From Candidatus Purcelliella pentastirinorum (GTDB lineage Bacteria; Pseudomonadota; Gammaproteobacteria; Enterobacterales; Enterobacteriaceae): a DNA stretch of 64,000 nucleotides. Positions 1,839 through 63,951 of this stretch are shown in pieces. The stretch covers positions 124,001 through 188,000 of the forward strand of contig NZ_CP028374.1 of the NCBI RefSeq assembly GCF_003391335.1. Reading direction: 5' to 3'. Position 1 is the first letter of the stretch; every line of letters begins with the position of its first letter. A program made the translations under genes and the position numbers. The notes below the pieces were generated by a model. The model was not told where the DNA came from. It made no database searches and saw only the letters and a list, made by a program, of their open reading frames with translations.

Positions 1839-3281
1839 TTATATTATTTTTAATAATTTTTTAATAACATTAGTTATGTCACCAGCTCCTTGTATTATTA
1901 ATACATCATTACAAGTAAGAATAACTTTCAATTTATCTATCAAAAAATCAAAATCTTTTACAAAAATAGGACTTAATTTGCCAAGTATAAAAATATCACT
2001 ACATAATTTAGTACTATTTATACCAAAAATAGGTAATTCATTAGAAGAATAAATATCAGAAATAAATAAAACATCAACATTAGATAATATATTTATAAAA
2101 TCATTATACAAATCACGAGTACGAGTGAAACGATTTGGTTGAAAAACCATAATTATTCTTCTATTTATCCAGCATTTTCTTGCAGTCAATATAGATATAT
2201 TAATTTCAGCAGGATGATGACCATAATCATCAACAATAATAAAATTGCCAATCCTACCATTAATCATAGATAATGAAAATTTACCAATATATTCAAAACG
2301 TCTTTTTGTACCTTTATATTTTTTTAATACTTTTAAAATATGTTTATCATTAATATTATCTTCTTTAGCAATTATTAATGCTGCTGTAGCATTTAAAGCA
2401 TTATGTTTACCAGGCATATTTAATAAAATTTTAATATCATATTTATTTTTATATAATAGTCTAAAAGAACTCTTTAAACCTATTTGTTTATAGTTATGTA
2501 TATGTACATCAGCATCATTACTAAATCCATAAGTAATAAATTTACGACAAACATAAGGTATTAAATCACGAACAACTAAATCATCTATACATAAAATAGC
2601 TTTCCCATAAAATGGTAAATTATGTAAAAATTTAATAAAAGCATTTTGTAATTTTTTAAAACTTCCATCATAATTACTTAAATGTTCAGCTTCAATATTT
2701 GTTATAATAATTACCATAGGATGAAAAAATAAAAAAGAAGAATCACTTTCATCAGCTTCAAAAATAAAACAATTACTAGAACCTAAAAATGAATAAGAAT
2801 TAATAGATTTAATATATCCACCATTAACAATAGAAGGATTTCTATTGTTATTAAAATAAATATCAAAAATCAAAGCTGAAGTTGTAGTTTTACCATGTGT
2901 ACCAGCAACAGCAATACTATAACTAAAACGAATCAATTCAGATAATATTTCTGCTCTAGAAATAACTGGTATATTTGATTTAAGAGCTGATAAAACTTCT
3001 ATATTATCATTTTTAATTGCACCAGAATAAATAACAACATCAACATTTTTAATATTATTAGAATCATGTTTATGATATACTGAAACTCCTAAAGACAATA
3101 AATAATTAATATTATCATTAATTTTAATATCTGAACCGCTAATAATAAAACCCATATCTAACAAAATTTTAGCTAATCCTACCATGCCAGATCCACCTAT
3201 ACCAATAAGATATATATTTTTAGGAAGATTAATAGAATTAAAAACAGAAAAATTATTTTTAAAATAAGTTAAAAAATTCAT
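1839..3281 (-). CDS. murC: UDP-N-acetylmuramate--L-alanine ligase MurC
   Basis: MurC adds L-alanine to UDP-MurNAc, the first amino-acid step of cytoplasmic peptidoglycan precursor synthesis. The protein has 480 residues (E. coli 491). It shows the N-terminal nucleotide-sugar motif GIGGSG (about 27-32), the ATP-binding loop GTHGKTT (127-133), and the Mur-family C-terminal motif DDYGHHPAEI. All three domains appear complete with no missing catalytic motif. It lies just downstream of murG on the same strand (52 bases) and upstream of secA. Its presence, with murD, murE, mraY and murG, shows that most of lipid II synthesis is still encoded locally. Confidence 0.97.
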   Translation of the reverse strand: MNFLTYFKNNFSVFNSINLPKNIYLIGIGGSGMVGLAKILLDMGFIISGSDIKINDNINYLLSLGVSVYHKHDSNNIKNVDVVIYSGAIKNDNIEVLSALKSNIPVISRAEILSELIRFSYSIAVAGTHGKTTTSALIFDIYFNNNRNPSIVNGGYIKSINSYSFLGSSNCFIFEADESDSSFLFFHPMVIIITNIEAEHLSNYDGSFKKLQNAFIKFLHNLPFYGKAILCIDDLVVRDLIPYVCRKFITYGFSNDADVHIHNYKQIGLKSSFRLLYKNKYDIKILLNMPGKHNALNATAALIIAKEDNINDKHILKVLKKYKGTKRRFEYIGKFSLSMINGRIGNFIIVDDYGHHPAEINISILTARKCWINRRIIMVFQPNRFTRTRDLYNDFINILSNVDVLFISDIYSSNELPIFGINSTKLCSDIFILGKLSPIFVKDFDFLIDKLKVILTCNDVLIIQGAGDITNVIKKLLKII

Positions 3282-3333: not shown

Positions 3334-4391
3334 TTAAATACAACTATTAATAATTTTTAATATTCGTTCTAAAGAACCTGGTAAATAAAGAGATTTAGCT
3401 TTAACAGACATCTTAAATAATATTGAACGATTTAATGAATTAAAAATAGAAATAAACATATCAACATTAAATTTTTCTTGTTTACAAATAATTCCAGCAC
3501 CAACCTTCTCTAATAATAAAGCATTAAAATACTGTTGATGATCTGAATGTTCAAAGGGAACTAAAATTGAAGGTAAACCAACCGCTATCAACTCACTAAC
3601 TGTAATAGCTCCAGATTGACAGACAACTAAATCTGCCCATGCATACGCTTTAGCTATATTATGAATAAAATCATTTATTCTATATTGTATAACTCCTATT
3701 TTTTTATAAATAGCATCTATTTCATTAAATGCATTATAACCAACCTGATGCCATAATAATATATTATCTTTTAATAACTTTAACACATCCGGGAAAATAT
3801 CATTAAATATCTTAGCACCTTGGCTACCTCCTATAACAAGAATCCTTATTGGCCCAGAACGATTATTGAATCTTAACTCAGGGGGTAAAATAGAAATAAT
3901 TTCATTTCTTATGGGATTGCCAACTACAATAGAATTTAATATAGCACCTGGAAATGCTTGAATAGATATATTAGCTATTTTAGCTAATAATTTATTAGTA
4001 ATACCTGCTATTACATTTTGTTCATAAATAATTAAGGGTATTCTTAATATCCATGATATTATCCCACCAGGAGCTGAGATATAACTACCTAAACCTAAAA
4101 TAACATCAGGTTTCCAAATTTTTATAATTTTTTTTAATTTATATAAACTACGAAATAAATTAAAAAAAAATAATAAATAAAATTTTAATCCTTTACCTCT
4201 CAATCCATTAATATATATAAAATCAATATTTATATTATATCTGGGTATCAAAAAAGATTCCATTCTATCCTTAGTACCTATCCAAAGTACATCCCATCCA
4301 TTTTTAATGAGAGCTTTTGCTATTACAATGCCCGGAAAAATATGACCACCAGTACCTCCCCCCGTTATTATTATTTTTTTTTTTTAATCAT
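3334..4391 (-). pseudogene. murG: MurG glycosyltransferase, frameshifted at a 12-A tract (possibly rescued by slippage)
   Basis: MurG transfers GlcNAc to lipid I on the inner face of the membrane, making lipid II. The uninterrupted frame 3334-4263 gives 309 residues starting at MESFLIPRY, but homology continues upstream in the same frame through TGGGTGGHIFPG and WIGTKDR, which match the E. coli N terminus. That frame meets a TAA just before any start codon. The natural start is ATG at 4389-4391, followed by ATT and a run of 12 A (coding strand; 4374-4385). With 12 A it reads MIKKKK-stop; with 13 A it reads straight into the glycine-rich loop and gives 352 residues (E. coli 355). The rest is intact, including GGSQGAKI and CQSGAITVSEL. 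It may be a pseudogene, or functional through transcriptional slippage as documented for Buchnera and Blochmannia. Confidence 0.9.
4374..4385 (-). repeat. 12-A homopolymer causing the murG frameshift
   Basis: This is a run of 12 T on the + strand (12 A in the murG coding strand), five bases after its ATG. One more A (or two fewer) restores the murG frame. Long A runs are the known sites of RNA polymerase slippage in AT-rich symbionts, so a fraction of transcripts could be in frame. Confidence 0.85.
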
Positions 4392-4503
4392 CCAAACTCC
4401 AAAAAATATAATATGTAAAATTAAATTAAAAATTATTTTATTAATAAATAATATTATATAATTTAAAATATATTTTCAATAAAAAATATATATAAAAATA
4501 AAA

Positions 4504-5823
4504 TTAATATTTATTTGCAATTCTTAAAAAGTACTTACCCCTCTCTTCAAAATTTTTAAATTGATCAAAACTAGAACAAGCAGGTGAAAATAAAATAACA
4601 TCACCAGATCTAACAATAGGCATTATATTAATAACCAATTCTTCTATAGTATTTCTATAAACAGAAATATTAGGATATGAAGAATAAATGAACATACCAT
4701 CTTTACCAAAACAACACAATTTAATTTTATCTTTATAAAGATAACCATCCAATGAAGATAAAAAAGTACTTTTTAAAATACCACCTAAAAATAACCACAC
4801 AAAACCAATATTATTCTTAAAATTAATTAATGCAGCAAGAGTACTAGATAAATTTGTAGATTTAGAATCATTTATCCATTTTATATTATTTCGTTGATGT
4901 ACTAACTGAAAACGATGTTTTAATCCTTTAAATAAAGAAAATATTCTCAAAATAATTTTTCTAGGAAAAAACATTATATCTGAAATAGCTAATACAGCTA
5001 AACAATTAATATAATTATAAAAACCAAATAATTTTATTTTAGATGTATTTAAAACACGTTCACCATATACGCTAAGCCATAAAGAACCACGATATTTTAC
5101 CATACAATAATCACCTGTATAAGAACCAAAACTAATACATTTTCTAAAAATTTTATTAAATGGAAATGTCAATATATCATCAACATTAACAAGACATATT
5201 TTAGAATTATTATAAATTCTTAATTTAAATGATCGATATTCTATAATATCGTTAAAATAACGATCCATATGATCACAACAAACATTTAATACCGTAGAAA
5301 CTTCAGATGATAAACTAAATATAGTCTCTAATTGAAAACTAGATAATTCTAAAATATACAATTGAGCATAATTTTTTAAAGTATCCAATACAGGAATACC
5401 AATATTTCCTGCCAAAATTACTTTAATACCAGAAGCATTAGCAATTCTATATAATAAACTGGAAACAGTACTCTTACCATTAGATCCGGTAATAGCAACA
5501 ATAGAAATAAATTGCAATTCACGACAAAATAATTCAATATCTCCAATAATTTCTATACCTACTTTTCTAGCATACAATAATGTAGGATCATTTAAAGATA
5601 AACCAGGACTAACAATAATTAAATCAAATAAAATAATATCTTCACATCTTAATGGACCTAATTTATATTTTACAAAATTAGGTAATTTATTTAATTCGGG
5701 AGGAAATTTTCTAGTATCCAATACCATTGGTACAATATCACGTCTTAAAAAAAAATTTATACAAGATAAACCTGTTTTACCTAAACCAATAACAACTATT
5801 TTCTTATTATAATAATTGTACAT
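4504..5823 (-). CDS. murD: UDP-N-acetylmuramoylalanine--D-glutamate ligase MurD
   Basis: MurD adds D-glutamate to UDP-MurNAc-L-Ala in the cytoplasm. The product has 439 residues (E. coli 438). Visible are the N-terminal IGLGKTGLSC motif (about 12-21), the ATP-binding loop GSNGKS (113-118) and the NDSKSTN motif, where E. coli has NDSKATN. It starts 3 bases from the end of mraY, so the two are surely co-transcribed. Downstream, the ftsW gene expected before murG is gone, leaving 112 bases. Confidence 0.97.
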   Translation of the reverse strand: MYNYYNKKIVVIGLGKTGLSCINFFLRRDIVPMVLDTRKFPPELNKLPNFVKYKLGPLRCEDIILFDLIIVSPGLSLNDPTLLYARKVGIEIIGDIELFCRELQFISIVAITGSNGKSTVSSLLYRIANASGIKVILAGNIGIPVLDTLKNYAQLYILELSSFQLETIFSLSSEVSTVLNVCCDHMDRYFNDIIEYRSFKLRIYNNSKICLVNVDDILTFPFNKIFRKCISFGSYTGDYCMVKYRGSLWLSVYGERVLNTSKIKLFGFYNYINCLAVLAISDIMFFPRKIILRIFSLFKGLKHRFQLVHQRNNIKWINDSKSTNLSSTLAALINFKNNIGFVWLFLGGILKSTFLSSLDGYLYKDKIKLCCFGKDGMFIYSSYPNISVYRNTIEELVINIMPIVRSGDVILFSPACSSFDQFKNFEERGKYFLRIANKY

Positions 5824-5826
5824 ATA

Positions 5827-6909
5827 CTAATAAATTCCAAAAATAAATAATCCAAATAATAAAAAAATAAATGAAACAATCCAAAAACAAATAACTATAT
5901 TAGGTTCAAACCAACCTTTAAGTTCAAAATGATGATGAATAGGTGCCATAAGAAAAATTTTTCTTCCAAAAAATTTAAACATAAATACTTGTAAAATAAC
6001 AGATAAAGTTTCTAAAACAAATAAACCACCCATAATAAAAAGTAAAAACTCTTGATGTAATAAAATAGAAATAACACTCAAAGAACCGCCTAAAGCTAAT
6101 GAACCTACATCACCCATAAATATCTTAGCAGGATAAAAATTAAAACATAAAAATCCTAAACAAGAACCTATAACTGATGAACAAAAAATAACCAACTCAC
6201 TAGCATTACACAAATAAGTAATATTAAAATAACTTGAAATGTAAATATCACTACAAAAATAAGATATTAATAAAAAACCAAAAAAAACTAAAATAATTGG
6301 AATAATAACTAAACCATCTAATCCATCTGTCAAATTAACAGCATTACTAGTTCCAATGATAACAAAATAAAAAAATATTATATAAAAAATATCTAATCGC
6401 ATATCTGAATATTTAAAATAATTAAATATAAATTTAGAAAATATTATATTTTTACAATGATAATATATCAAACAAGATAAAGTAAATGCTATTATAGATT
6501 GAAAAAAATACTTACACTTAATACTTATTCCATTAGGATTTCTATTAATTAATTTAAAACAATCATCAATTAATCCAATTAATCCATAACTAAATAATAT
6601 AATAAAAATATATTTTATATAATGATTATAAGAATATGACCAAAATAAAACAGATAAAAAAATTGAAATTATAATTGCTATACCACCCATTGTAGGAGTT
6701 TTATCTTTTAAATAATGTGATTTTGGACCATTTATTCTAATAATCTGATAAATATTAAATTTATTTAATAAATTTATTAAAAAAAAAACTAAAAACAAAG
6801 AAATCAAAAATGAAGTAAAAAAACTCGCAAATATTCTAGTTTTATAAGAAAAAAAAGCAATTAAATAAAAATTAATATTATGAAATAAGTTAGATAAATA
6901 AAAAAACAT
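5827..6909 (-). CDS. mraY: Phospho-MurNAc-pentapeptide transferase MraY
   Basis: MraY is an integral membrane enzyme that joins phospho-MurNAc-pentapeptide to undecaprenyl phosphate, making lipid I. The product has 360 residues, exactly the E. coli length, with many hydrophobic segments. Conserved catalytic sites are seen: the aspartate pair in GLIDDCFKL, the NAVNLTDGLDGL loop, MGDVGSLALGG, and the PIHHHFELKGW loop. An AGAGGTGAG ribosome-binding site precedes the ATG, one of the better ones in the window. murF, which normally sits upstream, is missing. Confidence 0.97.
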   Translation of the reverse strand: MFFYLSNLFHNINFYLIAFFSYKTRIFASFFTSFLISLFLVFFLINLLNKFNIYQIIRINGPKSHYLKDKTPTMGGIAIIISIFLSVLFWSYSYNHYIKYIFIILFSYGLIGLIDDCFKLINRNPNGISIKCKYFFQSIIAFTLSCLIYYHCKNIIFSKFIFNYFKYSDMRLDIFYIIFFYFVIIGTSNAVNLTDGLDGLVIIPIILVFFGFLLISYFCSDIYISSYFNITYLCNASELVIFCSSVIGSCLGFLCFNFYPAKIFMGDVGSLALGGSLSVISILLHQEFLLFIMGGLFVLETLSVILQVFMFKFFGRKIFLMAPIHHHFELKGWFEPNIVICFWIVSFIFLLFGLFIFGIY

Positions 6910-7410: not shown

Positions 7411-8895
7411 TTAAAACGAATATCTTTTTTTTAATGCTTCTCCTACTACTAAATGATCAGAATAATTAACATAACGATTACCAATAATTTGATAATTTTC
7501 ATGCCCTTTACCAGCTATTAAAACTAAATCTTCATTATCTACATATAATATAGTACTAAATATAGCTTTCAAACGATCTAAAAAATATTTCTTGTTATTT
7601 TTATTAGTAAAACCGGATTTAATATCATTGATTATATAAATAGGATTTTCATAACGTGAATTATCCACAGTGATAACCACATAATCAGATAATTGTTCTG
7701 CAATACTACCCATAATAGATCTCTTAGATTTATCACGATCACCTCCGCAACCAAAAATACACCATAATTTATTTTTACAATAAAATCTAGCAGATATCAA
7801 AGATTTTTTTAATGCATCAGGAGTATGAGCATAATCAATAATTACTGTAGGTTTATTAGTTGAATGGAACATTTCCATTCTACCTACAATAGGTTTTAAA
7901 AACTTAGCAGTAGAGATTAAATCAGTTAATGAATATCCCATCCATAAAAGTGTAGCTAAAGATAATAAAATATTAATAACATTAAACTTACCAATTAATT
8001 TAGTACTAAAAATTCCTTTACCCCAAAAAGAATCAAAATAAATAATAGTATTATTAAAATTATACTTTACATTATCTAATTTTAACCAATATTCATTTTT
8101 ACCGAAAAATAAATTACGATTAGTAGTAACACAAACTACCCTAGAAATTTTCTTTACCCAACATTTACCAACATCATCATCTATATTAATAATACTAATA
8201 TCAATATCATGTTTAGAAAACAACAACCATTTAGCTTTTATATATCTTTTCATATCCACATGATAATCAAGATGATCAATAGTAATATTACTAAATATAG
8301 CAGCAGTAAATGGTAAAGATAAGACACGGTTTTGAACAAGACCATGAGAAGATACTTCTATTGAAACAATATCAGCTTTTTGTTTAGAAAAACGATATAA
8401 CATTTTACAGACTTCAACGGCAGATTCTGTAGTATTAATTGAAGGACATAAATCACCATATATACCATTACCAATAGTACCCATAACTGCACCTGTATTA
8501 CCCAACAAAACAACCCATTGAGCAATCAAATGAGAAATAGTACTTTTACCATTAGTACCTGTTATTGCTATTAATCTTAACTTATTAGATATAGGATAAA
8601 ATCGTTGAGAAATAAAGGATAATTTTTTAGATAAATTTAAAAAATAAATTATAGGTACATCACCAAAATATATTATATAAGTATCTAAAAACAAATTATT
8701 TATCTCAACCAATACAGCGCTTGCCCCCCTAATTAATGCATCAATAATATAATTTCTACCATCAACATTATAACCAAGTTTAGCAACAAAAAGATCCCCT
8801 CCAATAATCAATTTACTATTTAAAGATATATTAGATATTTTTATTTTAGGAACATTAAATAACCAGGGTGATAATAAATAATCTAAATATAACAT
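7411..8895 (-). CDS. murE: UDP-MurNAc-tripeptide synthetase MurE
   Basis: MurE adds the third peptide residue, meso-diaminopimelate in Gram-negatives, to UDP-MurNAc-L-Ala-D-Glu. The product has 494 residues (E. coli 495). The ATP loop GTNGKST is at 113-119, VDYAHTPD-like IDYAHTPD at about 353-360, and the C-terminal GKGHENYQ motif is present. The diaminopimelate-recognition motif, DNPR in E. coli, reads DNSR here (411-414): the substrate-binding arginine is kept and proline is replaced by serine. ftsL and ftsI, which should sit between rsmH and murE, are missing, leaving 58 bases. Confidence 0.96.
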   Translation of the reverse strand: MLYLDYLLSPWLFNVPKIKISNISLNSKLIIGGDLFVAKLGYNVDGRNYIIDALIRGASAVLVEINNLFLDTYIIYFGDVPIIYFLNLSKKLSFISQRFYPISNKLRLIAITGTNGKSTISHLIAQWVVLLGNTGAVMGTIGNGIYGDLCPSINTTESAVEVCKMLYRFSKQKADIVSIEVSSHGLVQNRVLSLPFTAAIFSNITIDHLDYHVDMKRYIKAKWLLFSKHDIDISIINIDDDVGKCWVKKISRVVCVTTNRNLFFGKNEYWLKLDNVKYNFNNTIIYFDSFWGKGIFSTKLIGKFNVINILLSLATLLWMGYSLTDLISTAKFLKPIVGRMEMFHSTNKPTVIIDYAHTPDALKKSLISARFYCKNKLWCIFGCGGDRDKSKRSIMGSIAEQLSDYVVITVDNSRYENPIYIINDIKSGFTNKNNKKYFLDRLKAIFSTILYVDNEDLVLIAGKGHENYQIIGNRYVNYSDHLVVGEALKKRYSF

Positions 8896-18519: not shown

Positions 18520-18590
18520 AAAAAAAAAAAAAAAAAAAAAAATAATATATTTGAATAAATAATATAAACTTATAAAAAAAAAAAAAAAAA
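18520..18590 (+). repeat. Two very long A homopolymers upstream of groES
   Basis: The + strand has 23 consecutive A at 18520-18542 and 17 at 18574-18590, the second ending four bases before the heat-shock -35 box. No other runs this long were noticed in the window. They could be drift, or could act like an A-tract UP element that bends DNA and binds the RNA polymerase alpha subunit. Confidence 0.85.
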
Positions 18591-26108: not shown

Positions 26109-28484
26109 TTAAAAATATAAACTAAAAAACCTTTTTATCCAATAAATTATTGACTTATTTTTATTTTTATCAAAAACCAATGAATTACTAATACATTCTT
26201 TACCATGATCTTTGCAAAAATGTGAAAAGGAATGATTAAAATCCCAAATTGGTATTTTTCTCCAAATATTATTTTCACAAACTATTTTATTATTATGATC
26301 AATATTTACTCTAAAAATATCAGATAATGGAAATAAAACTAATGGTATAGGTGGTAAATAAGTTAAATAACATTTATACATTTGCATTGCATTAAAATGA
26401 CTTAAAAATAAAGATTTTTTATTATCTATTCCTATCCAAGAAACTATAACATCCTTATAATCTATACCAACAAACCAACTTGACCCAGTACTAAAACTAT
26501 TTTTACCGGCTATATTAGCATGAGGATATAATATATTCAAAGAATTAACAGTTCCTTTAAAAATTTTCTGCATACCATATAAAGTTAACCATGCCGCTTG
26601 AGATCTAACTACATGATTAAATGAATAATGATTATGATAAATAATTTTACCATTTTCTAAAATAATAGATTTAATAATAAATAAACATGATTTATTTCCC
26701 TCATTTGAAATCAACTGAAATATTTGAGCAACTTGAACTGGAGTCATATTAATTAAATTTGAAAAAATAGAATATTTAGATTTATATTTGTACAAACCTA
26801 ATCTAAACCATGTATTTAAAATATTTTTTAAATCCAAATTAATTTTGGAATTTATTAAAGGTACATTCATTAAATTAACTATATCATCAAGTAATATTAT
26901 TCTATCAATAAATTTATTATTATAATTTTTAAATTTAAAATTATTAAAATTAGATAAACCAATTGTCATTGGTTTATTTTCAATCCAAGTATTAAAACCA
27001 TAAATATTAGGATTATCAAGTAAAGATAAATATATAATAATTTTTGCCAATGAACCAATAGATCTACGAGATTCTAATATTTTATTATAATTAATAATTT
27101 TAGTTGACGCACTACCAACAACACCATGTATTTCTCCAGTAAATCTATCTACAATTATCATAAAAGCTTTTAAATTATTCATTTTTAATTTATCACGTGA
27201 AAATAAAATATTTAATTTTACAGATTTTTCAGCAAAATATTGTGATCTTAAATTTAAAGTAGTAAAAATCTTACTACCGGGTATATCATTAATTTTTTTA
27301 CCTAATTTAATTTTTAATTCATGACATAACATTCTCATAAATACAGGTTTTTTAGTTATAGATTTACTCTTAGATAACACACCTAATGGACGATTAATAA
27401 AAAAACAATAATCTTTATAACAAATAATATTTGTATTAAAAATTAATCTTAAAATTAAATTACGACGTCTTAAAACTAATTTAGGATTATTCCATGGATT
27501 ATATATTGAAGCACCTTTAACCATAGATATTAACAATACTTGTTGATCTAACGATAATTCATTAATCGGTCTGCCAAAATAATATATACTTGCAAGAGGA
27601 AAACCTCTAATTTCATAAATTCCAGACTGACCGAAATAAACTTCATTAAAATATAATTCTAAAATACGATTTTTACTATATAAAGCGTCAATAATAATTG
27701 CAATATAAATTTCATTAAATTTACGTAAAAAAGAACGTTTATTACTTAAAAATAAATTCCTCGCTAATTGTTGTGTTAATGTACTAGCACCCTGAACAAT
27801 TTTACCAGCATGAATATTTGCAATAAAAGCTCTACACATTGAAAAAGGATTAATACCACTATGATAAAAAAAATTTTTATCTTCAATAGAAAGCAAAATA
27901 TTTATCATTTTATTAGAAAAATTAGACAACGGTAGGAATAAACGCTCCTCTTTATTTGAAGTATGTATCATATTTACTAAAATAGGATCCAATCTAAAAA
28001 AAAAAATACTTTTATTATTTTTAATATTTATAATATTACTAATTTTATTTTTATTAAAATAAAGACAGACATGAAGTATCCCTTCATTACAATCAGGAAA
28101 ATTAAAAGATCTTCTTATTAATTCAATATTATCTTCTTTAACAATATATTCACCAGAATTATTCAAAACATCAACTTTTAAATAATGATGAAAATTTAAA
28201 ATAGAAATTAAATCACATTTTGTATAAAACATACCAGGTTTAAATTTTAAGATACTTCCATATACAAAAGCTGGTAATTCCCAAACTTTACCATTGATAC
28301 GATTAATAATCTTGTTATTTAAATATAACCCATATACAATAATAACAATTATAGTAATAAAAAATATTTTAGAAAAAAAATTTATTTTATTTATTATTTT
28401 ATAAAAAAAAGATTTAATACTAAAAAATATTTTATTATTAATTTTTTTTTTTTGGAAAACTATTTTTTTATTATCTATAAACAT
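26109..28484 (-). CDS. mrcB: Penicillin-binding protein 1B with degenerate transpeptidase domain
   Basis: PBP1B normally polymerises lipid II (glycosyltransferase) and cross-links the peptides (transpeptidase) in the periplasm. The product has 791 residues (E. coli 844). One membrane segment lies near residues 37-54. The glycosyltransferase is intact: catalytic glutamate E201 in IEDKNFFYHSG, then QGASTLTQQLARN (231-243) and YFNEVYFGQSG. The transpeptidase keeps the nucleophile motif SLAK (478-481), but the SxN motif is LMN (538-540) and the KTGT motif is KNSF (661-664). Two of three catalytic motifs are thus lost, so cross-linking activity is unlikely. A 12-A run codes in frame near residues 11-15. 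Confidence 0.95.
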   Translation of the reverse strand: MFIDNKKIVFQKKKINNKIFFSIKSFFYKIINKINFFSKIFFITIIVIIVYGLYLNNKIINRINGKVWELPAFVYGSILKFKPGMFYTKCDLISILNFHHYLKVDVLNNSGEYIVKEDNIELIRRSFNFPDCNEGILHVCLYFNKNKISNIINIKNNKSIFFFRLDPILVNMIHTSNKEERLFLPLSNFSNKMINILLSIEDKNFFYHSGINPFSMCRAFIANIHAGKIVQGASTLTQQLARNLFLSNKRSFLRKFNEIYIAIIIDALYSKNRILELYFNEVYFGQSGIYEIRGFPLASIYYFGRPINELSLDQQVLLISMVKGASIYNPWNNPKLVLRRRNLILRLIFNTNIICYKDYCFFINRPLGVLSKSKSITKKPVFMRMLCHELKIKLGKKINDIPGSKIFTTLNLRSQYFAEKSVKLNILFSRDKLKMNNLKAFMIIVDRFTGEIHGVVGSASTKIINYNKILESRRSIGSLAKIIIYLSLLDNPNIYGFNTWIENKPMTIGLSNFNNFKFKNYNNKFIDRIILLDDIVNLMNVPLINSKINLDLKNILNTWFRLGLYKYKSKYSIFSNLINMTPVQVAQIFQLISNEGNKSCLFIIKSIILENGKIIYHNHYSFNHVVRSQAAWLTLYGMQKIFKGTVNSLNILYPHANIAGKNSFSTGSSWFVGIDYKDVIVSWIGIDNKKSLFLSHFNAMQMYKCYLTYLPPIPLVLFPLSDIFRVNIDHNNKIVCENNIWRKIPIWDFNHSFSHFCKDHGKECISNSLVFDKNKNKSIIYWIKRFFSLYF

Positions 28485-30072: not shown

Positions 30073-30693
30073 ATGAATTTTAATTTAATAAATTATAAAT
30101 TAATTAAATTTATTAAAAGTATAAATAAAATAAAAGATTTACCAAAAGATAAATGTATAGAAATCGCATTTATAGGATATTCAAATGTTGGAAAATCGAA
30201 TACAATAAATGCATTAAGTGGTATAAAAAAGATAGCTTTTACAGGTAAAAAACCAGGAACAACAAAACTAATTAATTTATATCAAATAATAAAAAACTTT
30301 TATCTAATTGATTTCCCTGGATATGGATTTTCAAATATATCATTAAAAAATAAAAATAAACATACGTTTCTTCTAAATAAATATATAAAAAAAAGAAAAT
30401 CATTAAAAGGAATAATAATTTTAATGGATATCAGACAAAAATTAAAAAAATTAGACATAAATATAATTAAAAAAACTATAAAAAAAAAATTAATAATAGT
30501 TTTATTAAATAAAGCTGATAAATTATCAAATAATAAAAAAACTATAAAAAAAAAATACTTTAAAAATGAAATAAAAAAATATAATAATAATATAAATATT
30601 CAAACTTTTTCATCAATAAATAATGAAGGACTTAAAATCTTAAAAAAAAAAATAAATATATGGTTAGCATTAAATATACATTTATTAAAATAA
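30073..30693 (+). CDS. engB: Ribosome-biogenesis GTPase EngB (YihA)
   Basis: EngB is an essential GTPase involved in late 50S assembly. The product has 206 residues (E. coli 210). The G1 loop is FIGYSNVGKSNTINAL, G3 is DFPGYGF, and G4 is LLNKADK. In enterics it is adjacent to polA, as here, although the pair is now in the same orientation with 73 bases between. Confidence 0.95.
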   Translation: MNFNLINYKLIKFIKSINKIKDLPKDKCIEIAFIGYSNVGKSNTINALSGIKKIAFTGKKPGTTKLINLYQIIKNFYLIDFPGYGFSNISLKNKNKHTFLLNKYIKKRKSLKGIIILMDIRQKLKKLDINIIKKTIKKKLIIVLLNKADKLSNNKKTIKKKYFKNEIKKYNNNINIQTFSSINNEGLKILKKKINIWLALNIHLLK

Positions 30694-32840: not shown

Positions 32841-33293
32841 ATGGATATTAAAAAAATAAATAGATTAATTAAATTAGTAAAAAAATCAAAAATTACAGAA
32901 TTAGAAATTTCAAATAAAGATGAATCCATTCGTATTAATTATTTAAATAATAAATATCTAATAAATAATTCAGATTACAACCTATACAATAAAAAAAATA
33001 CAGAATATAAAAAAGAAAAAAAAAAAAAAGAATTAACTGGATATAAAATACGTTCCCCCATGGTTGGAACTTTTTATATAACTCCTAATCCAACATCTAA
33101 ACCATTTATAACAATAGGACAAAAAATTAATATAGGCGATACACTTTGTATAATAGAAGCAATGAAAATAATGAATCATATTGAATCAGATAAATCAGGA
33201 ATAATAAAATCAATATTAATAAAAAATGGTCAACCAGTTGAATTTAATGAACCACTAATAATTATAGAATTATTGGATAAAATAATATGCTAA
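32841..33293 (+). CDS. accB: Biotin carboxyl carrier protein of acetyl-CoA carboxylase
   Basis: AccB carries carboxybiotin between the two half-reactions that make malonyl-CoA. The product has 150 residues (E. coli 156). The biotinylated lysine is K109 in [11 protein letters not shown], and the protruding thumb [16 protein letters not shown] is present. The N-terminal half is lysine/asparagine rich linker. It overlaps accC by 7 bases. Biotin supply and the BirA ligase must come from elsewhere. Confidence 0.96.
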
Positions 33294-34633
33294 ATAAAAT
33301 TATAATAGCTAACAGAGGAGAAATTGCATTAAGAATTTTAAGAACATGTAAAGAATTAGGAATCAAAACAGTAGCTGTATACTCAACTGTAGATAGATAT
33401 CAAAAACATGTACTTTTAGCAGATGAATCAATTTGTATAGGATTACCTCAACCAAAAAATAGTTATTTAAATATACCAGCAATTATATCAGCTGCTGAAA
33501 TTACAGGATCAGATGCTATTCATCCTGGATATGGATTTTTATCAGAAAATGCTAATTTTGCAGAACAAGTTGAAAATTCCGGGTTTGTCTTTATAGGACC
33601 TAAACCAGAAACAATCCACCTTATGGGTAATAAAATTTCAGCAATCAATACAATGAAAAAAATAGGTATGCCATGTGTACCTGGGCCAAAAGAACCAATA
33701 AAAAATACTATTAAAAAAAATATTAAGATCGCAGAATCAATAGGATATCCAATAATAATAAAATCAGCAAATGGAGGAGGAGGTATTGGTATTAAAATAG
33801 CTTATAATAACAAACATCTTGAACAATATATAAACATCATACAAAATCAATTTCAAATATCATGTAAAAATAATGAAATATACATAGAAAAATATATAGA
33901 TAAGCCAAGACATATTGAAATACAGATTATCTCAGATGGGAAAGGAAATGTAATTTATTTAGCTGAAAGAGATTGTTCAATACAATATAAACATAAAAAA
34001 TTAATAGAAGAAGCTCCTATATTAAACATAAATAAAAATATCAAAAAAAAAATAATAAAATATTGTATTAAAGCCTGTATAAAAATTAAATACAGAGGAG
34101 TAGGAACCTTTGAATTTTTATATAAAAATGATAAATTCTATTTTATAGAAATGAATACCAGAATACAGGTTGAACATACAATTACCGAAATGATAACAAA
34201 TATAGATATAGTAAAAGAACAAATAAAAATATCATCAGGATACCCATTGTTAATAAAACAAGAAAATTTAAAAATAAATGGATATGCTATAGAATGTCGT
34301 ATCAATGCTGAAGATCCAAATAAATTTATACCTAATTCAGGTAAAATAACACACTTTCATGCTCCTGGAGGATTAGGAGTAAGATGGGAATCACATATAT
34401 ATACAGGATACACAATAACTAATTATTATGATTCTATGATAGGAAAATTAATTACATATGGTAAAAATAGAGAAACAGCAATAGCAAAAATGAAAAATGC
34501 ATTAGAAGAATTAATAATAGAAGGTATAAAAAACAATATAGAATTACATAAAAAAATAATAAAAAATAAAAAATTTAAAAAAGGAAAAATAAATATAAAT
34601 TTTTTAAAAAAAATAATAAAAAATAAAAAATAA
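33287..34633 (+). CDS. accC: Biotin carboxylase AccC
   Basis: AccC carboxylates the biotin on AccB using ATP and bicarbonate. The product has 448 residues (E. coli 449). It shows [16 protein letters not shown] at the start, [15 protein letters not shown], the ATP-grasp glycine loop [13 protein letters not shown], and [17 protein letters not shown] with catalytic glutamate and arginine. It pairs with accB; the carboxyltransferase genes accA and accD are not in the window. Confidence 0.97.
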
Positions 34634-53540: not shown

Positions 53541-54176
53541 ATGAATAAAAAAAAAATAAATGAAATAATAAAAATTTTTAAAAAGAAAAATCCTATACCT
53601 AAAACAGAATTAAATTATAAAACACCATTTGAATTATTAATTGCATTAATATTATCAGCTAAATCAAAAGATATACAAGTAAATAAAATTACAAAAAAAT
53701 TATGGAATACAACAAATACACCAAAAAAAATATTAAAACTAGGAAAAAAAAAATTAAAAAAACAAATAAAATCCTTAGGATTATTTAACAATAAAACAAA
53801 AAATATAATAAAAACATGTGAAATAATAATAAATAAACACAAAAATAAAATACCTAATAATAGAAAAGAATTAGAAAAATTACCTGGAATAGGAAGAAAA
53901 TCTTCAAACATTATTTTAAATATATTATACAATAAAAATACAATAGCTGTTGATACTCATGTATTTAGAATATGCAATAGAACTAAAATAGTTACAGGTA
54001 ATACAACAATTAAAATAGAAAAAAAATTAATAAAAATTATTCCAAAAAAATTTAAAAAAAACATACACAATTGGTTAGTATTACATGGACGATACATATG
54101 TAAAGCTAAAAAACCATTATGTAATTCATGTAAAATCAGTAAATTATGTGAATATAAAAGTAAAAACTATTTTTAG
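53541..54176 (+). CDS. nth: Endonuclease III (base-excision repair)
   Basis: Nth removes oxidised pyrimidines and nicks the abasic site. The product has 211 residues, the E. coli length. The helix-hairpin-helix with catalytic lysine is LPGIGRKSSNIIL, the catalytic aspartate is in AVDTHVFRI, and the Fe-S cluster cysteines are in CKAKKPLCNSCKISKLC. One of few DNA repair genes seen here. Confidence 0.96.
   Translation: MNKKKINEIIKIFKKKNPIPKTELNYKTPFELLIALILSAKSKDIQVNKITKKLWNTTNTPKKILKLGKKKLKKQIKSLGLFNNKTKNIIKTCEIIINKHKNKIPNNRKELEKLPGIGRKSSNIILNILYNKNTIAVDTHVFRICNRTKIVTGNTTIKIEKKLIKIIPKKFKKNIHNWLVLHGRYICKAKKPLCNSCKISKLCEYKSKNYF

Positions 54177-60371: not shown

Positions 60372-63951
<3,580 letters not shown>

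Follow-up and report, generated by a model that had tools for sequence, protein, structure and literature searches.

The murG gene of Candidatus Purcelliella pentastirinorum, a probable planthopper symbiont, is probably a working gene that lies off-frame at a run of 12 A residues (A12) close to its start and is rescued by RNA polymerase slippage. The gene is found on the minus strand, with murC and murD on either side, within a 64,000-nucleotide stretch of DNA that was analysed as a whole and is referred to here as the window. The genome that holds the window (G000) is a single contig of 479,855 bases. The sole other genome of the genus to be found (G001) was met in a set of 60 relatives and once more when 392 genomes were drawn from the family; a search of genome contigs for related loci yielded two distant ones. 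In reverse orientation G001 aligns collinearly with the window at about 91% DNA identity, and its murG is off-frame at the same tract by a different amount.

The start region and reading frame of murG

On the coding strand, the start region of murG reads GGAG-TTTGG-ATG-ATT-A12-TAA. The GGAG (4397-4400, minus strand, as are all positions in this section) lies five bases before the ATG start codon (4389-4391). It is Shine-Dalgarno-like and would serve as the ribosome-binding site. The ATG is followed by an ATT second codon (the pair spanning 4386-4391, with ATT at 4386-4388) and then by the A12 tract at 4374-4385, which is T12 on the plus strand. A TAA directly after the tract (4371-4373) ends the zero frame, and the product as written is MIKKKK followed by a stop.

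A tract of 13 A residues gives a protein of 352 codons that begins MIKKKKIIITGGGTGGHIFPG, and one of 10 A residues gives 351 codons. When tract lengths from 9 to 15 were translated, the MurG frame with its GGGTGGH loop (4342-4362) opened at 10 or 13 A only. The original prediction had placed murG one base off at an A12 tract right after its start, with one extra A opening a 352-codon MurG that includes the GGGTGGH, which it called the substrate loop. Both points are confirmed by the sequence and by these translations. The prediction also held that nothing else in the gene is damaged, and indeed the 349 codons and the stop that follow the tract (3334-4383) contain no other lesion. This frame scores 318.3 bits against the NCBIfam model TIGR01133 for murG (cut-off 250.25) and matches the Glyco_transf_28 and Glyco_tran_28_C domains. 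Its assignment to MurG is based on the TIGR01133 score above the cut-off and on the GGGTGGH in the translation. In having one off-frame homopolymer tract and no other damage, the gene resembles the slippage-rescued genes of endosymbionts.

Since a TAA lies in the MurG frame just upstream (4384-4386), an ordinary start codon is unable to serve that frame. No ATG, GTG or TTG occurs in the MurG frame between this TAA and the GGGTGGH. The internal ATG at 4261-4263 opens a frame of 309 amino acids that does not contain the GGGTGGH.

The GGAG, ATG and ATT are the same in G001, but the tract there has 11 A residues (A11) and is also off-frame. As in G000, 10 or 13 A residues are needed, so that the correction for G001 is one A fewer or two more. 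The frameshift is consequently retained in the one other genome of the genus that was found, with the two sisters off-frame by different amounts.

Purifying selection after the tract

Selection was estimated from G000 and G001 by the simple Nei-Gojobori method, which is rough at about 21% G+C. For murG after the tract, with no gapped codon and no stop, dN is 0.030, dS is 0.29 and dN/dS is 0.103, the fifth lowest value among the 17 genes compared. The values for the neighbouring genes are all higher (murC 0.22, murD 0.29, mraY 0.33 and murE 0.19). Relative to G001, the 8,300 bases of non-coding DNA in the window show 164 indel events. Indels at this density would number about 21 in the 1,047 bases of murG downstream of the tract if the gene were neutral, and there are none.

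The constraint extends to the N-terminal end of the frame. The 37 codons from the tract to the internal ATG hold nine synonymous and two non-synonymous codon differences, and 10 of the 11 base differences sit at third positions. The predominance of synonymous differences implies that these codons are translated in the MurG frame. By this comparison, purifying selection on murG is shown to begin directly after the tract despite the frameshift, and murG, as had been predicted, is not a dead gene but one that selection maintains.

In the coding intervals that were listed, G000 and G001 are separated by nine frame-changing indels, among them the murG tract itself. Another, at 53575 near the start of nth, is part of the nth frameshift described below, and the other seven are located at gene ends, at the 5′ edge of a gene or ahead of the likely start codon.

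Explanations for the off-frame tract

It is probable, on the sequence evidence, that RNA polymerase slips on the A12 tract. This would produce a pool of murG mRNA with several tract lengths. On the molecules that carry 13 A (or 10 A), ribosomes starting at the conserved binding site and ATG would make full-length MurG, a product that is expected to be active. Polymerase slippage is preferred over ribosomal frameshifting because the A12 and A11 tracts need different corrections. The simplest view of the off-frame length is that it is a mutation the cell tolerates, as opposed to a dedicated switch. The slippage rescue proposed in the original prediction holds as the best single explanation, given the selection on the frame and the A12 and A11 of the two sisters, while we infer the slippage itself and its frequency.

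A possible but doubtful explanation is an error in the assembly or consensus, or a true mixture of lengths in a population or polyploid cell; the length in the assembly would then be a wrong one or simply the most frequent. Calling the length of a run of 11-12 A is difficult. To gauge such errors, a pattern search was made for tracts of 11 or more A on either strand, which gave 112 in G000 and 127 in G001; 100 and 52 of these, respectively, were examined. A tract was counted as genic when the open frame around it spanned 300 nt or more and either had a start codon ahead of the tract or ran off the edge of the stretch; this test is blind to frameshifts close to a gene's 3′ end. In G000, 79 of the examined tracts (lengths 11-17) are in open frames. 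The remaining 21 consist of murG, the only broken gene found at the 100 examined tracts, and 20 tracts without a broken gene. Six of those 20 were inspected in sequence. The start-proximal tracts of both genomes were viewed by eye, and no further broken gene was seen at them.

In G001, 39 of the 52 examined tracts are in open frames, and two of the 13 others are in broken genes, murG and nth. The window orthologue of nth, the gene of endonuclease III (53541-54173), scores 251.7 bits against TIGR01083 (cut-off 211.7); it is in frame, and its tract is broken up. In G001 the frame of nth is lost about 14 codons past the ATG, at an A11 tract near G001:C1:71500, and the product as written stops at codon 24. 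Downstream of the tract the gene is free of stops, with a dN/dS of 0.147 against G000. It can be read as a repeat of the murG pattern within the genus, and also as a sign of tract errors in G001, since a second off-frame A11 gene is what an error-prone assembly would give as well. For this reason confidence in slippage is lowered slightly.

Random miscalls per tract amount to no more than about 3.7% in G000 (95% bound) and, with nth taken as an error (1 of 40), to no more than about 11% in G001; these bounds cover random miscalls only and not tracts that are truly mixed in the DNA. Such miscalls are rare in the G000 assembly and not frequent in that of G001. At the examined tracts, G000 showed no general homopolymer noise, and the case is less clear for G001 given the off-frame nth. 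An explanation by error further requires that both assemblies err at one and the same tract. Among the tracts examined, the genic ones other than murG (and the G001 nth) are in frame, which indicates that rescue is too inefficient for the frame to drift freely.

Several further sites were considered as candidates for slippage or split genes and rejected. On the G000 contig (C1), the tracts ahead of the genes at 268447 and 306268 adjoin normal ATG starts, the gene at 280086 has an A13 right behind its ATG and is in frame, and the tract at 30185 is the end of a gene. Those at 194890 of the contig and at 22377 of the window are intergenic. Three frames of the window that might have been pieces of split genes match whole families, two adjacent ones an Rpb6-type RNA polymerase subunit and the YihA/YsxC GTPase, and the third L32p. 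A stop in the G001 counterpart of the gene at 61486-63948 precedes a later ATG, the likely start. The longest A runs of the window, A23 and A17, lie close together in non-coding DNA between two genes (18520-18590).

Ribosomal -1 frameshifting on an A-AAA-AAA within the murG tract is quite unlikely as a general explanation, although it is possible for G000 alone. Frameshifting of the dnaX type acts at A-AAA-AAG, and murG resembles it in having an A-rich slippery run and a GGAG-like element upstream. The zero frame of G000 contains the heptamer A-AAA-AAA just before the TAA, and a -1 shift there gives the MurG frame. In G001, however, the same shift on A11 (equivalent to one added A) reads MIKKKK followed by two stops, and a +1 or -2 shift is needed instead. 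The direction is not common to the two sisters, unlike in the dnaX type, and no one ribosomal mechanism fits both.

Initiation after the tract at a rare non-AUG codon, such as one of the ATA codons, would require no correction of the frame. It is very improbable, as the GGAG-ATG-ATT module conserved in both genomes would then be superfluous. The only codons in G000 between the upstream stop and the GGGTGGH are AAA, ATA and ACG, and ATA is a very weak start codon.

The notion that murG is a pseudogene, or yields the 309-amino-acid product of the internal ATG alone, agrees with the broken genomic frame and with the failure to find murF, ddl and FtsW/RodA (see below), but is ruled out for practical purposes by the low dN/dS, the missing indels and the in-frame conservation of the 37 codons ahead of the internal ATG.

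Slippage at homopolymers has precedent in other insect symbionts. It has been reported in a review that 12-50% of transcripts are corrected by slippage in Buchnera and Blochmannia, and that slippage-corrected transcripts occur for cell-wall genes of aphid symbionts (PMC5009743). In Blochmannia vafer there are eight frameshifted genes for which slippage was proposed; rates were tested for four of the eight, with nothing unusual (PMC3017870). Its dnaX, dnaG, dxs, pth, ribF and others resemble murG in that each is intact apart from one frameshift in a poly(A) or poly(T) run. The Blochmannia case differs in that murG is absent from the text of that paper and in that the Purcelliella sisters are off by different amounts.

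Another likeness is provided by murF, which is recurrently frameshifted at homopolymers in several Buchnera lineages (PMC3164680). As with murG, this gene (and also murE and mraY) is a peptidoglycan precursor gene with a single homopolymer frameshift that recurs in relatives. The gene and the lineage differ, the Purcelliella tract is placed directly after the start codon, and RNA evidence is reported for Buchnera whereas the Purcelliella case is known from DNA. Evidence against slippage comes from a genome-wide study in which transcription errors were not seen to restore any reading frame, either in E. coli or in Buchnera (PMC5574713). No report of a frameshifted murG in symbionts was encountered in the titles and abstract openings of the literature searched.

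The peptidoglycan pathway and murG in other small genomes

Both G000 and G001 retain murA, murB, murC, murD, murE, mraY, murG and a class A penicillin-binding protein (PBP). In the window, all of the following lie on the minus strand: murC at 1839-3281 (TIGR01082, 478.2 bits), murD at 4504-5823 (TIGR01087, 343.1 bits), mraY at 5827-6909 (TIGR00445, 347.9 bits) and murE at 7411-8895 (NF001123 and TIGR01085). The PBP, of the PBP1b type and with a transglycosylase domain, is at 26109-28484 (TIGR02071, 756.6 bits, cut-off 717.75). The list of retained genes given in the original prediction (murC, murD, murE and mraY) is correct as far as it goes, and is extended by murA, murB and PBP1b.

The pathway has a hole in the middle. 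Searches for murF in the two genomes match only the three other ligases, the search for ddl gives one weak match below the cut-off in each, and the FtsW/RodA family was not found in either. The G000 match to ddl lies inside the window gene at 33287-34633, which is presumably a biotin carboxylase; bioB is carried by both genomes. The symbiont by itself may be unable to make pentapeptide lipid II. According to a review on obligate intracellular bacteria, MurF and Ddl genes are present in all of the organisms that it considered to have peptidoglycan (PMC5814848).

It had also been predicted that slippage would throttle MurG, and with it lipid II. This claim is weakened on analysis because the 79 other genic tracts of G000 (11-17 A/T) should slip too, and partial loss of correct mRNA would not be special to murG. 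With murF, ddl and FtsW/RodA not found, the supply of lipid II would not be set by MurG alone. A related idea, that the off-frame length of murG was itself selected for a low dose of MurG, fitting a host-dependent wall pathway that already lacks these genes, is considered unlikely.

The survey of murG was extended to another 62 genomes of small size (up to about 1.0 Mb), taken from the 348 with a listed match among the 392 family genomes and excluding G000 and G001. Under lenient criteria, which asked for one aligned piece and a start within 25 codons, murG is whole in 58 of the 62 and broken in four, as judged from the assemblies as given. In one of the four, from another symbiont genus (L045, G019:C1:215200-217000), an A9 tract no more than three codons from the start puts the gene out of frame by one. 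The other three (G201, L147; G282, L144; G349, L145) belong to one genus, g68, and their frames change at A8-A10 tracts near codon 63, not all by an equal amount. Three of the five g68 genomes examined are off-frame and two are in frame. Off-frame A tracts in murG thus recur, at two different places of the gene. If the off-frame length were indeed selected, murG would be a recurrent target of slippage-based dosage reduction, as G019 and the three g68 genomes would illustrate.

Two of the 58 genomes with a whole murG contain in-frame TGA codons, four in G308 (L148) and two in G140 (L132). All four in G308, and one of the two in G140, fall at Trp positions of the window MurG. This suggests that TGA is read as Trp in the murG of these genomes.

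The Purcelliella murG, to judge from its sequence, probably adds a case to the known slippage-rescued genes of endosymbionts, and would extend this form of rescue from the symbionts of aphids and ants to a probable symbiont of planthoppers. A single tract that is off by different amounts in two species provides a test by which polymerase slippage and ribosomal frameshifting can be told apart. With standard gene calling, murG would come out as truncated (309 amino acids) or dead. The presence of MurG protein would bear on whether the symbiont builds a wall at all.
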